Origin: a virus
Direction: 5' to 3' (one strand)
IMG/VR virus record: IMGVR_UViG_3300042291_002066
Location: 1-45,739 of that record
Length of the DNA: 45,739 nt
Shown piece after piece: positions 3,749-44,129 of the stretch (positions within the stretch are counted from its first letter, which is position 1; each line of letters opens with the position of its first letter). Below the pieces are notes generated by a model. That model saw only the letters and a list, made by a program, of their open reading frames with translations, was not told where the DNA came from and made no database searches. A program made the translations under genes and the position numbers.

Positions 3749-3766
3749 AACATTTATTTAACGTGG

Positions 3767-3798
3767 TGAATATACGAAACTATTCTTGGGTAACCAAA
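3767..3798 (-). promoter_or_regulatory. Promoter (TTTGG-N19-TATATTCA)
   Basis: Minus strand: TTTGG at 3798-3794, 19-base spacer ending TTCG, TATATTCA at 3774-3767, then leader and ATG at 3748. The -33 box lies inside the end of the upstream gene (stop at 3780). Confidence 0.82.
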
Positions 3799-4748: not shown

Positions 4749-4770
4749 AACATTTATTTTTAATTACCCG

Positions 4771-4802
4771 TGAATATACGAACTATATTTAAATTAAACA
4801 AT
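4771..4802 (-). promoter_or_regulatory. Promoter (ATTGT-N19-TATATTCA)
   Basis: Minus strand: TATATTCA at 4778-4771 preceded by TTCG; the -33 position reads ATTGT (4802-4798), a weaker match to TTTGG. It drives the HNH operon. The -33 box is inside the end of the SWIM gene. Confidence 0.72.
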
Positions 4803-5213
4803 TAGTTTTTCAATTTCCTTGATGTGCTTGCAGCGACGATCAAATGCTCTCCAGCTACCAGGACAAGTGCAAGTTAATTTGAGGCCATTTTGTTTAACCT
4901 TATAAAAACCACCTCCTGATGATGATTCGAACATCCATTCGTTTTGTTGAACGGGTACCTCTACTACAACAGGAGCATTGTGTTTAATATCACTAATGGT
5001 AGTTTGAGGGTGGACCTCTAGCCAGTCTGGTACTAGCATCTTTTTACCTCTAATTTCTATTAGGGCAAAATAAGGTGAACGCGATTCGTAACTAAAACGT
5101 TTTGCGCCTTGAAACGAACCAAATCCTTGACCGATTTTTAAAGCACCGTCTGCATAGACAACACGGCTACGTAAATTTCCGTATTTGTTAGTATTTGTAA
5201 ATTGCCATAGCAT
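4794..5213 (-). CDS. SWIM-type zinc finger protein
   Basis: A 139-residue protein whose C-terminus holds C115-x-C117 ... C128-x-H130 (CTCPGSWRAFDRRCKHI), the SWIM zinc signature used in DNA-binding and protein-interaction modules. The N-terminal 65 residues form a beta-rich domain with an IGQGFGSFQGAKRF segment. The start is supported by the promoter at 5236-5267 and leader AATAAAGGTTATG. SWIM domains occur in helicases, transposases and recombination mediators; this stand-alone form may guide a partner to DNA, which is inference. Confidence 0.75.
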   Translation of the reverse strand: MLWQFTNTNKYGNLRSRVVYADGALKIGQGFGSFQGAKRFSYESRSPYFALIEIRGKKMLVPDWLEVHPQTTISDIKHNAPVVVEVPVQQNEWMFESSSGGGFYKVKQNGLKLTCTCPGSWRAFDRRCKHIKEIEKLIV

Positions 5214-5235
5214 AACCTTTATTCCTTTATTTGGG

Positions 5236-5267
5236 TGAATATACGAAATATCCTTCAGGTATCCAAA
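5236..5267 (-). promoter_or_regulatory. Promoter (TTTGG-N19-TATATTCA)
   Basis: Minus strand: TTTGG at 5267-5263, spacer ending TTCG, TATATTCA at 5243-5236. It lies immediately after the stop codon of the small gene at 5269 and drives the SWIM gene. Confidence 0.82.
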
Positions 5268-5268
5268 T

Positions 5269-5427
5269 CTATGCCAAAAATATCTTTGGTTCTTTTTTCT
5301 GCTCTAAAGTTAACTGGGAGTCAAGAGTGATAGCTGTACATAGCCTTCGAAGATCATCTTGTCGCATACTAGCAAGATCGTCATCCTCTAATAAATAGAG
5401 AATATCGATAGCTCTAATGTTCCTCAT
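5269..5427 (-). CDS. Small acidic helical protein, 52 aa
   Basis: ATG at 5427 lies inside the end of the previous small gene (14-base overlap). The 52-residue product has RAIDILYLLEDDDLASM and DDLRRLCTAI, an amphipathic helical pattern, and a C-terminus ending KIFLA. It is the last member of a string of four tiny genes linked by overlaps, and the next promoter begins two bases beyond its stop. No family recognised. Confidence 0.6.
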   Translation of the reverse strand: MRNIRAIDILYLLEDDDLASMRQDDLRRLCTAITLDSQLTLEQKKEPKIFLA

Positions 5428-5551
5428 TCAATCTTGCGTAATCAGGAGTTTGAGGCTTCTTTTTACGCTTCATAGATGTATAGCGTTGGCTAGCCCATTT
5501 ATACCATTCTTGAAACGCGATATAACGGGCTTTGCTTGATACTTTACTCAT
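5414..5551 (-). CDS. Small basic protein, 45 aa
   Basis: ATG at 5551 shares ATGA with the upstream stop. The 45 residues begin MSKVSSKARYIAFQEWYKWA and include RYTSMKRKKKPQTPDY; the composition is basic and aromatic, suited to nucleic-acid contact. Coupling on both ends supports translation. No family recognised. Confidence 0.62.
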   Translation of the reverse strand: MSKVSSKARYIAFQEWYKWASQRYTSMKRKKKPQTPDYARLNEEH

Positions 5552-5682
5552 AACTTAATTTGTTCAGTTGTTAATTTATTTAATACAAGGTAATTAGCCT
5601 TTAGGCGTTTTCCAAATTTTATTTTAGTAGTTTTACTTACTGATTTTTTACCAATAACTCGTTTTTTCTCTGACTTTGACAT
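5548..5682 (-). CDS. Small Lys-rich protein, 44 aa
   Basis: ATG at 5682 overlaps the upstream stop (TAATG) and its own stop overlaps the next start (ATGA). The 44-residue product is strongly basic at first (MSKSEKKRVIGKKSVSK) and ends in a short leucine-rich helix. Function unknown; its exact fit between neighbours is the main evidence. Confidence 0.62.
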   Translation of the reverse strand: MSKSEKKRVIGKKSVSKTTKIKFGKRLKANYLVLNKLTTEQIKL

Positions 5683-5825
5683 TATCTTCCTTGCCCTCTA
5701 TAGGCTTTTTTATAAAGTTTACTAGTTTTAAGGCTAGATGTTTTAGTTTTAGAATGAACGCCTGGACGGGATACCTGTGGTTTTTCCTGAAATGAGGATA
5801 CGGTTTGAGATTTAATTTTAGCCAT
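5682..5825 (-). CDS. Basic 47-residue protein with SRPGVHSKTK motif
   Basis: ATG at 5825 begins a 47-residue frame. Its second half, SRPGVHSKTKTSSLKTSKLY followed by KKAYRGQGR, resembles short basic proteins I have seen in other large phages, where a G-V-H-x-K-T-K and a final Y-x-G-Q-G-R are kept. The role is not known. It heads a four-gene string (5825 down to 5269) joined by TAATG, ATGA and a 14-base overlap. A longer frame across the same bases from 5845 is less protein-like and is a shadow. Confidence 0.68.
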   Translation of the reverse strand: MAKIKSQTVSSFQEKPQVSRPGVHSKTKTSSLKTSKLYKKAYRGQGR

Positions 5826-5873
5826 TTAAAGAAACAAATTAACATTAGTAATAACTGAACAGCTATAAATATG

Positions 5874-6419
5874 TTAGAATTTGTCTTTAAGTTCCTCGGC
5901 TAATTTTTTAACTTTTAAAATATAATTTGGATCTTCAGCATAACCCATTTGCGATAACATATTGTAATATTGTTGATCAGTTCTAGCTTTAACTAAACCT
6001 GTTGTTGCCTGATAATAACCATAATCTTCAACTGATGATTCCCAATGATCATAATATGCGTGTCCGTTTTTGGTACCTTTACAGGTGGTAGGACGACGAT
6101 GAGATTGTTTCATCCCAAATAAATTATAGTTTTGTTTAAATATTTTAGATCTAAAACCACCTGTCTCTAATGTTGCTTGAGCTAAAACAATATGTGGGAA
6201 TTTTAAGTGTTTGTTTTTAAGAGATTTAATTAAAGCATCCCGACTAAAGTAATTTTGATCCATATAAATAATAAATTCTTTCTCGTATAGAGTAAGATGA
6301 TTTACTTGGATAAAACGACCCGCAGTATAAGTTAAAAATAAAACAAATATTGCGATTGAATATTGTTTAAAACCGAATCGTTTAAATTCTAGGTTTTTGC
6401 GATTGAAAGTATAAAACAT
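5874..6419 (-). CDS. Membrane-anchored glucosaminidase (peptidoglycan hydrolase)
   Basis: A 181-residue protein with a basic N-terminus, one hydrophobic helix (about residues 20-38), then a glucosaminidase domain of the FlgJ/LytG type. The catalytic Glu is E85 in LAQATLETGGFRS, followed by NLFGMK (99-104) and a C-terminal YYNMLSQMGYAEDPNY, all hallmarks of N-acetylglucosaminidases that cleave the glycan backbone. The helix should act as a signal anchor, placing the enzyme on the outer face of the inner membrane, so it could reach the wall without a holin. It is far from the holin and GH19-like genes, suggesting a separate role or a second lysin. Confidence 0.85.
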   Translation of the reverse strand: MFYTFNRKNLEFKRFGFKQYSIAIFVLFLTYTAGRFIQVNHLTLYEKEFIIYMDQNYFSRDALIKSLKNKHLKFPHIVLAQATLETGGFRSKIFKQNYNLFGMKQSHRRPTTCKGTKNGHAYYDHWESSVEDYGYYQATTGLVKARTDQQYYNMLSQMGYAEDPNYILKVKKLAEELKDKF

Positions 6420-6425
6420 AACTAA

Positions 6426-6581
6426 TTAAAATAAGTCAAGAAATTTTCCTGTGCTTTTCTTCTCTTTAAGTTTATTGAATTTTTCGTCATTCTCTAACAT
6501 CTTGTCAGCTAGTTTTTCAAGATGTTTTGCTTTGACATTTTTATAGTCTTTGACTATTTTTTCGTGTTTTTTAGATTTCAT
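6426..6581 (-). CDS. Lys-rich helical protein, 51 aa
   Basis: ATG at 6581 shares ATGA with the upstream HNH-like gene's stop. The 51-residue product is about one third lysine and alternates with Glu/Asp (KHEKIVKDYKNVKAKHLEKL), giving a continuous helix ending KFLDLF. It could be a coiled-coil partner. No family recognised. Confidence 0.62.
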   Translation of the reverse strand: MKSKKHEKIVKDYKNVKAKHLEKLADKMLENDEKFNKLKEKKSTGKFLDLF

Positions 6582-7222
6582 AATCTAGAAACAAATTCTG
6601 AACCATCATCTACTTCAGGTGTATTGTGTAAACCCAATGCTTTTAATCGTTCAAGTTGATAATCGTCTAATTCCCATTCAAGAGCCTCTGATGTATTAAA
6701 CTTAGGTACTGAGTCCTCAATTTGAGCAACATCCGCAGCATTAAATACATTACTAACCATAAGAAAATAGTGATTGTAACAAAGTACCTCTAAATTATTT
6801 AATCTATAATTTTTTGGGTCTTTATCTTTAAAATGGAGCAATAAGGGTATTTTATAATCTGATACTCTTCGTTCATTGAATCCACATAAACCACATTCTT
6901 CTTTTAAATAACCTTCTTCAAATAGACGTTTTTTAATCTTAGTTGGTGAAAAGCTAGTTACTGGGATTAACCCATTAATTAGGTCTTGTAGTGGGGGAGT
7001 TTTACCGTGGTTACCAATCCACTTTTTAATACCTCTACCTGCTTGGTTTAAATGCTGTTCAAATAAATTATCGTAGCCCGGTTTAGTGGCATCATAGAGT
7101 TTAGCCCATTTTTTATAGTGAATATAACTACAGTTCAAATAGCGGGCTGCTGAACGGTTACTTTTAGTAACCCCCATAGCACCTACAATTTGCTCCTTAG
7201 TAATAGGCTTAGGTTTTGGCAT
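6578..7222 (-). CDS. HTH plus HNH-like zinc protein, 214 aa
   Basis: The first 45 residues (ITKEQIVGAMGVTKSNRSAA, then RYLNCSYIHYKKWAK) look like a helix-turn-helix that senses a short DNA motif. Residues 110-150 hold CGLCG, then LLLHFKDKDPKNY, NNLEVLCYNHYF, an HNH-like beta-beta-alpha pattern with the metal-binding His and a single Cys of the second pair (CYNH instead of CxxC). Proteins of this design occur widely in T4-like phages of Bacteroidota. It may be a DNA-binding nickase or a degenerate HNH serving as a binding module. TAATG coupling joins it to the upstream gene. Confidence 0.72.
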   Translation of the reverse strand: MPKPKPITKEQIVGAMGVTKSNRSAARYLNCSYIHYKKWAKLYDATKPGYDNLFEQHLNQAGRGIKKWIGNHGKTPPLQDLINGLIPVTSFSPTKIKKRLFEEGYLKEECGLCGFNERRVSDYKIPLLLHFKDKDPKNYRLNNLEVLCYNHYFLMVSNVFNAADVAQIEDSVPKFNTSEALEWELDDYQLERLKALGLHNTPEVDDGSEFVSRL

Positions 7223-7539
7223 TACCCTATATCTATCTTACCCGAATTGCTAATATGTGGTGGGGTTTCATCCTCATCAAAATTTTGGAATTCGGATTTA
7301 CTAGCACCATTTTTGGATTTATCCTTAATAATAAATTGGATGAATTGTTTCTCTTCCATGATTACAACATCAGTATATGAGTGGTCACCCTCCCCACGTT
7401 GTACGGTAACACCGCGTTTACGACCGACATCTGAACAGCTTACACAGTGTTTAGTGTTGGGTAATATTTCAAGACGTTTGGGATGAATTGATTCACCACA
7501 CAAGAGACATTCTACTACCATAATTTCATTTTGTATCAT
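7222..7539 (-). CDS. DksA/TraR-like zinc finger protein
   Basis: A 105-residue protein with C-x2-C (CLLCG) and C-x2-C (CVSCSD) separated by about 18 residues containing IHPKRLEILPNT. The spacing and the I-x-x-x-R-L-x-x-x-P linker are those of the DksA/TraR C4 zinc finger, which in that family binds in the secondary channel of RNA polymerase. The long helical coiled coil of DksA is absent; the remaining 60 residues are acidic. A role in modulating host transcription is therefore only a possibility. Driven by the promoter at 7559-7590. Confidence 0.7.
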   Translation of the reverse strand: MIQNEIMVVECLLCGESIHPKRLEILPNTKHCVSCSDVGRKRGVTVQRGEGDHSYTDVVIMEEKQFIQFIIKDKSKNGASKSEFQNFDEDETPPHISNSGKIDIG

Positions 7540-7558
7540 ACATATAACCTTTAGGGGG

Positions 7559-7590
7559 TAAATGTACGAACTATTCTTCGACCAGACAAA
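7559..7590 (-). promoter_or_regulatory. Promoter (TTTGT-N19-TACATTTA)
   Basis: Minus strand: TTTGT at 7590-7586, spacer ending TTCG, TACATTTA at 7566-7559. The -33 box is within the last codons of the upstream acidic gene, and the leader continues CCCCCTAAAGGTTATATGT to the start at 7539. Confidence 0.78.
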
Positions 7591-32960: not shown

Positions 32961-32981
32961 AACATTTATTTAATTATAACG

Positions 32982-33013
32982 TGAATATACGACCAAAATT
33001 GCGCTAGGGCACG
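32982..33013 (-). promoter_or_regulatory. Promoter of the chaperonin operon, unusual -33 region
   Basis: TATATTCA at 32989-32982 with GTCG before it matches the common -7 pattern, but the -33 position (33013-33009) reads CGTGC instead of TTTGG. The -33 box and spacer are instead occupied by one arm of the 18-bp repeat shared with the region upstream of hsp20, suggesting an activator or repressor site. Confidence 0.65.
32995..33012 (-). repeat. Arm 1 of imperfect inverted repeat flanking hsp20
   Basis: Plus-strand AAAATTGCGCTAGGGCAC is matched by the reverse complement of 33518-33536 (AAAATTGTAGCTAGGGCAC), differing by one inserted base and one change. It overlays the -33 and spacer region of the chaperonin promoter. 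Confidence 0.7.
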
Positions 33014-38856: not shown

Positions 38857-38871
38857 ATAACTTATTTTACG

Positions 38872-38903
38872 TAAATGTACGAAACAATCTTTACAGAGCA
38901 AAA
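38872..38903 (-). promoter_or_regulatory. Promoter (TTTTG-N19-TACATTTA)
   Basis: Minus strand: TTTTG at 38903-38899, spacer ending TTCG, TACATTTA at 38879-38872. The -33 box and part of the spacer lie in the last codons of the upstream phosphoribosyltransferase gene. Confidence 0.78.
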
Positions 38904-44077: not shown

Positions 44078-44097
44078 AACTTGATTTTTTATTTGGG

Positions 44098-44129
44098 TAA
44101 ATATACGAAAGCCCTTACGGGCTTCCAAA
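44098..44129 (-). promoter_or_regulatory. Promoter with hairpin in the spacer
   Basis: Minus strand: TTTGG at 44129-44125, 19-base spacer, TATATTTA at 44105-44098, preceded by TTCG. The spacer contains AAGCCC-GTAA-GGGCTT (44124-44109), a 6-bp stem with tetraloop that lies between the boxes and might also terminate transcription arriving from upstream, since TTTCGTATATTT follows. Confidence 0.8.

Follow-up and report, generated by a model that had tools for sequence, protein, structure and literature searches.

A chain of four tiny conserved phage genes behind an endolysin gene: a candidate late, lysis-linked cassette

Four tiny genes, referred to as A, B, C, and D, follow one another on the minus strand of the virus record IMGVR_UViG_3300042291_002066, and they are separate conserved protein genes under purifying selection. 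The whole stretch of DNA analyzed, termed the window, comprises 45.7 kb, and 57 of its 60 ORFs of at least 100 amino acids lie on the minus strand. The reading we prefer, with a probability of about 0.5, is that A to D form a late, lysis-linked accessory cassette that would be co-transcribed and translated in a coupled manner. We infer everything that goes beyond conserved, selected, and co-directional genes. A stretch easily mistaken for non-coding carries four selected genes. The biology is ordinary in kind, that of small conserved late phage genes; what is new are the B, C, and D families, three small-protein families absent from all three libraries searched.

Gene A (5682..5825, minus strand) encodes a protein of 47 amino acids that carries a net charge of +11, ends in YRGQGR, and belongs to a large phage family overlapping PHROG 516. 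The start codon of gene B (5548..5682, minus strand; 44 amino acids, net +12) lies inside the stop codon of A (TAATG). Gene C (5414..5551, minus strand; 45 amino acids, net +7) overlaps B by ATGA, and gene D (5269..5427, minus strand; 52 amino acids) overlaps C by 14 bases. The gaps A/B, B/C, and C/D are accordingly -1, -4, and -14. The coordinates, the lengths of 47, 44, 45, and 52 codons, the minus strand, and the TAATG, ATGA, and 14-base junctions of the initial annotation were all correct. The basic composition that it ascribed to the four products applies to A, B, and C; it does not apply to D, which is acidic (net -2, pI 4.8).

Chains of short frames were scored in dinucleotide shuffles, counting ATG-started ORFs of at least 44 amino acids on either strand and recording the longest chain. 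For the 654-base region 5220-5873, the longest chain in 5,000 shuffles was 0 in 3,493 cases, 1 in 1,491, and 2 in 16. Shuffling of the whole window (n = 60) gave a longest chain of 1 in 17 cases, 2 in 42, and 3 in a single case. Because the shuffles reached at most two ORFs in a row for the region and three for the window, the chain of four is beyond chance.

Relatives were collected from IMG/VR. A search with the endolysin yielded six loci, L001 to L006, and further loci were obtained through C. L001 did not differ from the window at any of the 557 bases, L002 to L005 were diverged, and L006 stopped inside the endolysin gene. Eight distinct full chains were available: the window type, L002, L003, L004, L005, L095, L107 (identical to L108), and L109. 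The seven diverged relatives among them leave out L110, in which A and B are complete and C is cut by the contig end, as well as the partial chains of L026, L027, and L037. Frames broken in close relatives were looked for; instead, A, B, C, and D were open in all eight distinct full chains, including 7/7 diverged relatives.

Selection was evaluated by the Nei-Gojobori method. For gene A, dN/dS between the window and the seven relatives was 0.10-0.19 (0.10-0.21 in pairs without the window), and for gene B it was 0.22-0.60 (0.24-0.49 in pairs without the window). Gene C gave pN values of 0.18-0.33 and pS values of 0.63-0.86, the latter mostly saturated, when the window was compared with the same seven relatives. 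Gene D occurs in two subtypes. Compared with L002, L004, and L109, which share the subtype of the window, its dN/dS was 0.15-0.27; the other four relatives carry the second subtype (25-31% identity), for which the estimates were saturated or, in one case, 0.53. Without the window, dN/dS of D was 0.44 for L002 versus L004 and 0.56-0.83 between subtypes. Thus, D changes fast between subtypes, with dN/dS of 0.53-0.83 where computable and dS near saturation. The frames being intact in 7/7 distinct diverged full-chain relatives and pN lying below pS, the coding nature of the stretch is supported, and the four tiny genes proposed in the initial annotation are genuine. It is vanishingly improbable that the frames arose by chance or are the remnants of a single longer gene in decay: they are very short, and dN/dS of B rises to 0.6 in close pairs, but the shuffles, the intact frames, and the selection contradict this idea, and further phage contigs carry A or C in the absence of the remaining genes.

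Few synonymous changes were seen in gene B. Against L002 to L005 its pS was 0.23-0.34; in these comparisons that of C amounted to 0.75-0.80. In the comparison with L002, the synonymous divergence of B differed clearly from that of C (P 0.002), was borderline relative to the endolysin gene (0.04), and did not differ from that of A (0.18). Recombination or extra constraint could lie behind the low synonymous change in B.

A second frame runs over gene A (5648-5845, minus strand) and is open for 65 amino acids in the window. In L002 and L005 the alternative frame is a 102-amino acid ORF reaching into B (5550-5858), and it has 71 amino acids in L004 and 33 in L003. Open at such varying lengths, it is a trap for gene callers. 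The expectation that automatic annotation with a length cut-off leaves such a region empty did not hold in general, as A homologues are annotated in Flavobacterium phage vB_FspM_immuto (immuto) and in S-PM2, S-CBS4, and HTVC008M. A tRNA and a structured RNA were ruled out as alternatives: no tRNA was found in the window, and it had no Rfam match at the gathering threshold.

The junctions were compared with those of the whole window. A greedy ATG-only choice of ORFs, with the chain and gene E (described below) added by hand, gave 82 minus-strand genes. Among the 81 adjacent minus-strand pairs, 46 overlapped or abutted, the three chain junctions included, with spacings of -4 (16 times), -1 (9 times), and -14 (4 times) among them. 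Tight overlaps are the ordinary house style of this genome. Conservation of the overlaps was ruled out as a signal per se, overlaps being common genome-wide and the B/C overlap not being kept. Two of the three junctions were nevertheless conserved: in all eight distinct chains A and B were spaced by -1 or +1, and C and D overlapped by -11 to -23. This constancy fits translational coupling. The B/C overlap of -4 was confined to the window type, the other chains having spacings of +8, +9, +9, +12, +107, +114, and +784 bases. In L107, L109, and L110 a gene for a Cys-rich protein of 41-42 amino acids, by eye of membrane type, was situated between B and C, and L109 and L110 had in addition a gene for a protein of 220-229 amino acids at this place that appeared lipoprotein-like by eye. 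Synonymous changes between the window and L002 amounted to 22 of 56 sites in A+B and 40 of 54 sites in C+D (rounded; Fisher P 0.0003). Because the B/C spacing varies and takes insertions and the synonymous divergence shifts there, the chain consists of two pairs, A-B and C-D, linked at an exchange point, a B/C cassette boundary that takes up extra genes.

Upstream of the chain lies a block of four genes on the minus strand. The endolysin gene (5874..6419) is directly upstream of A; its product contains a glucosaminidase domain (PF01832, E 1e-18) and, by eye, a hydrophobic stretch near the N-terminus. Gene E (6426..6581), a conserved partner in the block, specifies 51 amino acids with the C-terminus FLDLF. 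It is preceded by genes for an HNH-like protein of 214 amino acids (6578..7222), which belongs to the same block as the endolysin gene and E, and for a DksA/TraR-type zinc-finger protein of 105 amino acids (7222..7539). The tails of gene E products in remote relatives read SFLDLF, DFFKLF, DFLKNF, and DFWNKF; we take them to resemble the tails with which proteins such as the T4 late transcription factors bind the sliding clamp. The next gene after D (4794-5213, minus strand) encodes a protein of 139 amino acids with the pattern CTCPGSWRAFDRRCKH, which is kept in relatives and which we presume to be a SWIM-like zinc pattern; the protein had no Pfam match to a SWIM family.

A motif, TTCGTAYATTYAC, was present in the window in eight copies with at most one mismatch, all on the minus strand (981-993, 3766-3778, 4770-4782, 5235-5247, 7558-7570, 32981-32993, 38871-38883, and 44097-44109), versus 0.40 expected, and none of 100 shuffles reached eight. 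In seven of the eight cases it was located 14-21 bases before a selected gene, and TTTG-like bases occurred upstream of several copies. We assume a resemblance to the -33/-7 promoters of Bacteroidota. One promoter-like copy, TTCGTACATTTAC (7558..7570, minus strand), precedes the zinc-finger gene, the first gene after it, and would open a transcription unit; another, TTCGTATATTCAC (5235..5247, minus strand), lies between D and the next gene and would mark the end of this unit. Since copies flank the stretch from the zinc-finger gene through D and none was found between 7558 and 5235, we infer a single transcription unit from about 7570 to 5269 on the minus strand. The motif before the zinc-finger gene was exact in L001 and in four of the seven diverged relatives (L002, L004, L095, and L109), and it was absent within one mismatch in the remaining three diverged full-chain relatives (L003, L005, and L107). 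Among remote loci, L141 had an exact copy at this place, L026 a copy with one mismatch, and L037 and L148 none; L144 begins downstream of it. The motif is missing in several relatives and is therefore no strict rule. Against a single unit, the 48-base leader before A could hold a promoter of its own.

In the preferred reading, one transcript would start at the promoter-like motif at 7558, and A to D would be the tail of this polycistronic minus-strand unit, directly behind the endolysin gene. Ribosomes finishing A would re-start at B, and those finishing C would start at D; such re-starts would link the amounts of the A and B products and those of the C and D products. The chain proteins would then act as late accessory factors at or near lysis, and the conserved Y(R/K)GQG tail at the C-terminus of A may serve for docking to a partner.

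The A family consists of basic proteins of about 47 residues with the C-terminus Y(R/K)GQG. In an alignment of 62 members, including three cyanophage/pelagiphage copies, Q45 and G46 were invariant, and Y42 and G44 were conserved in at least 90%. An embedded Shine-Dalgarno sequence was ruled out as the cause of the RGQG tail, because the tail codons vary (AGA, CGT, and others); GTG is frequent at -17 because CGT-GG encodes Arg-Gly. The window copy itself matched PHROG 516 weakly (E 0.022; residues 3-47 on positions 5-48 of the 48-position profile). The profile matched 6/6 close A members at E<=1 (best 3.8e-5) and 38 of the 62 members of the wider alignment at E<=0.1 (best 1.6e-23), and the immuto copy gave 1.4e-4. 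PHROG 17967, a family without assigned name or function, matched 10 of the 62 (best 1.5e-20). Gene A thus appears to belong to a family overlapping PHROG 516 / T4-GC 394, the link for the window copy being made through intermediates.

This family is abundant. A scan of IMG/VR with A confirmed at least 447 of 600 candidate stretches, and the loci studied were the best 80 of these at least 447. Genome assemblies yielded 19 A-family loci, 18 of them labeled as metagenome-assembled, with titles across many unrelated groups, as expected because phage contigs are binned with hosts. When the PHROG 516 model was run on ten cultured phage records at E<=0.01, S-PM2, S-CBS4, immuto, and HTVC008M matched, and T4, crAss001, phi14:2, RM378, Mel-JY01, and DAC19 did not. 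The annotated homologues, of 45-47 amino acids, are S-PM2 p079, S-CBS4 gp050, immuto gp085, and HTVC008M gp051. Searches of the phage collection by tblastn with two further A relatives returned nothing for one and only immuto for the other; the low-complexity filter of tblastn probably hides K/S-rich queries. A literature search by name for PHROG 516 and T4-GC 394 found no paper.

The window phage is related to Immutovirus. By tblastn, 33 of the 82 selected window genes matched immuto (NC_055915) at E<=0.01, among them the DksA-like zinc gene, the HNH-like gene, the endolysin gene, and A, together with glycosyltransferases, GroEL, GroES, and 7-deazaguanine DNA-modification genes. At the place of E, immuto has gp163, which tblastn missed and which was 31% identical when aligned. 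B, C, and D had no match in immuto at E<=0.01 (best E 7.3, 1.8, and 1.5, respectively). Unlike in the window, about 49 kb separate A of immuto from the zinc/HNH block, and the glucosaminidase endolysin is encoded elsewhere. In immuto, A is followed by gp084 (L008 8116-8586), the product of which has a Cys/Gly/Lys-rich C-terminus, WVDCNAPDG...KYPACRPTPSQC. No homology was found between the genes after A in S-PM2 and immuto.

The PHROG 516 / T4-GC 394 proteins S-PM2p079, S-CBS4 gp050, and HTVC008M gp051, and also immuto gp085, resemble A in length (45-48 amino acids), basicity, and their GQG(K/R) end, and window A is 30-37% identical to the cyanophage/pelagiphage copies. Their genomic position differs. 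In S-PM2 and HTVC008M the gene is located just upstream of gp25; this is not the case in the window, immuto, and S-CBS4, and A of the window follows the endolysin gene. The gp25-adjacent position is read as a trait of one branch of the A family and not as a defining feature. A small-gene hot-spot between gp46 and gp25 has been described for marine T4-like cyanophages (Sullivan et al. 2010, PMC3037559). In S-PM2 a series of small hypothetical genes precedes gp25; it includes the A homologue and is similar in this respect, but its context differs from that of the window, and profiles of B, C, and D found no match in the S-PM2 or HTVC008M stretches. These positions bear on the possibility, which we regard as rather unlikely, that A, together with its partners, is a minor component of the virion or takes part in assembly. 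The cyanophage/pelagiphage homologues adjoin baseplate wedge genes, that of S-CBS4 adjoins tail genes, and other A members adjoin genes for head-maturation protease, ring, and tail proteins. However, the neighbors of the chain in the phage group of the window are the endolysin gene and small genes, with no structural genes, and the passages of Sullivan et al. 2010 (PMC3037559) consulted name no such protein among the virion proteins identified by mass spectrometry, nor does "394" appear in the main text.

A link of the family to lysis was assessed from gene neighborhoods. Profile searches with A to E were carried out on 121 loci, which include repeats of the same contigs. The combination A+B+C+D+E was detected in 11 loci, A+C+D+E in 2, A+D+E in 2, A+B+D+E in 1, A+E in 1, A+B in 4, A alone in 90, C alone in 7, and none of the five in 3. 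The order zinc finger, HNH, E, endolysin, A, D, SWIM-like was kept, save inserted genes, in L026, L037, L141, L144, and L148, in which B and C come and go; L141 lacks D, and the L144 contig starts at the HNH gene. L141, L144, and L148 encode a different type of endolysin, which matches PHROGs of tail lysozymes and of other endolysins, and A still lies behind it. Despite this swap, E, endolysin, A, and D follow one another in L144 and L148, as do E, endolysin, and A in L141. From such exchanges one might picture A to D as a modular system with which Bacteroidota phages assist lysis: the basic, near-invariant A would go along with endolysins of unrelated folds and, with its small companions, would perform or time a step of envelope breakdown beyond holin, endolysin, and spanin; we consider this extended version improbable.

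For a broader view, 129 immediate neighbors of A genes were taken from 65 loci (non-redundant by A sequence), and 120 were scanned. Of the 18 on the minus strand, 9 were dropped by hand and 9 kept; third neighbors were those on the plus strand (n = 88). The Pfam families listed were 25 of 35 for immediate and 25 of 26 for third neighbors. Among the matches listed, holin or peptidoglycan hydrolase rows accounted for 22-24 of the 120 immediate neighbors, or 20-22 without two tail lysozymes; the rows total 24, and two proteins may each match two families. Holin 4_1 was represented seven times, glucosaminidase four times, and amidase three times, in addition to others. Lysis rows among the matches listed for third neighbors numbered 5 of 88, or 6 with DUF5675. 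One-sided Fisher tests of immediate versus third neighbors gave P values of 0.002-0.026 across the ways of counting, which overstate the enrichment because the loci are mutually related and the two neighbor sets had been filtered differently by strand. Other immediate neighbors were GroEL (4), prohead-type protease (4), ribonucleotide reductase (2), and tail or ring proteins. The common denominator of the A-family surroundings is late genes with a lysis bias. That members of the family also adjoin GroEL, head-protease, and tail genes speaks against a lysis link, as do the homologues of cyanophages and pelagiphages just before the baseplate genes gp25-gp6 and the distance of about 88 kb between A and the endolysin gene in immuto. 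An abundant unexplained family (PHROG 516-like; at least 447 confirmed IMG/VR stretches) is tied to late and lysis gene surroundings, and its function is therefore testable in the cultured phage immuto.

Within a lysis role, a more specific mode of action is conceivable. The disruptin of phage phiKT is described as an amphipathic helix with antimicrobial action (Holt et al. 2022, as cited in PMC12819732), and disruptins are cationic peptides with which phages that lack spanins breach the outer membrane. A, B, and C are likewise small and cationic (net +11, +12, and +7) and adjoin endolysin and holin genes, so that they may be similar with regard to a putative lysis stage; the genes between B and C that look by eye like small Cys-rich membrane-type (L107, L109, L110) and lipoprotein-like (L109, L110) ones would also fit. 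On the other hand, A is polar, and the best hydrophobic moment of C, 0.43, is unexceptional, being reached by 664 of 2,000 shuffles. Such strict sequence conservation would, moreover, be unexpected for a membrane-active peptide. We regard disruptin-like effectors as very improbable.

B, C, and D of the window had no match at E<=1 in PHROGs, Pfam, or NCBIfam, and annotated homologues were found for none of the three. Against the phage collection, tblastn found no match for B and two records for C at E values of 7 and 10 only. In PDB sequence searches, A had no match; C had three short, weak matches to ETV6 constructs (best E 0.87), and D had short, weak matches to a designed protein (E 0.059) and to archaeal transcription factor E (E 0.59). 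The AlphaFold2 model of C contained one confident helix, residues 6-23 (mean pLDDT 77), which carries conserved aromatics. D was modeled as three helices (mean pLDDT 85), and fold searches with this model gave no structural match at E<=0.001. The initial annotation had taken the basic composition as a sign of nucleic-acid contact. In an elaborated form of this idea, A, B, and C would bind nucleic acid, the ribosome, or RNA polymerase and thereby alter the expression of host or phage genes at a late stage of infection. Their charge of +11, +12, and +7 on 44-47 residues, the DksA/TraR-type zinc-finger and HNH-like genes in the same putative unit, and the short match of the D profile to archaeal transcription factor E point in this direction. 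Yet no nucleic-acid-binding family was found for the chain proteins in PHROGs, Pfam, or NCBIfam, the PDB gave nothing for A and only short, weak matches for C and D, D is acidic, and charge by itself is weak evidence. Binding of this kind therefore seems unlikely to us, and we keep to the late, lysis-linked cassette as the preferred reading.

Gene C was present without A in seven further loci. In three of them, L097, L100, and L102 (at 3001), the C homologue directly follows a gene named by sequence as GroEL, with a 1-base overlap; this context is drawn from these three loci, the others being L098, L099, L103, and L104. In L100 and L102 a small membrane protein is encoded a few genes past the C homologue. 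On the contig IMGVR_UViG_3300042290_000327, a C homologue (L099) occurs together with an A homologue (L019), at a distance of about 80 kb.
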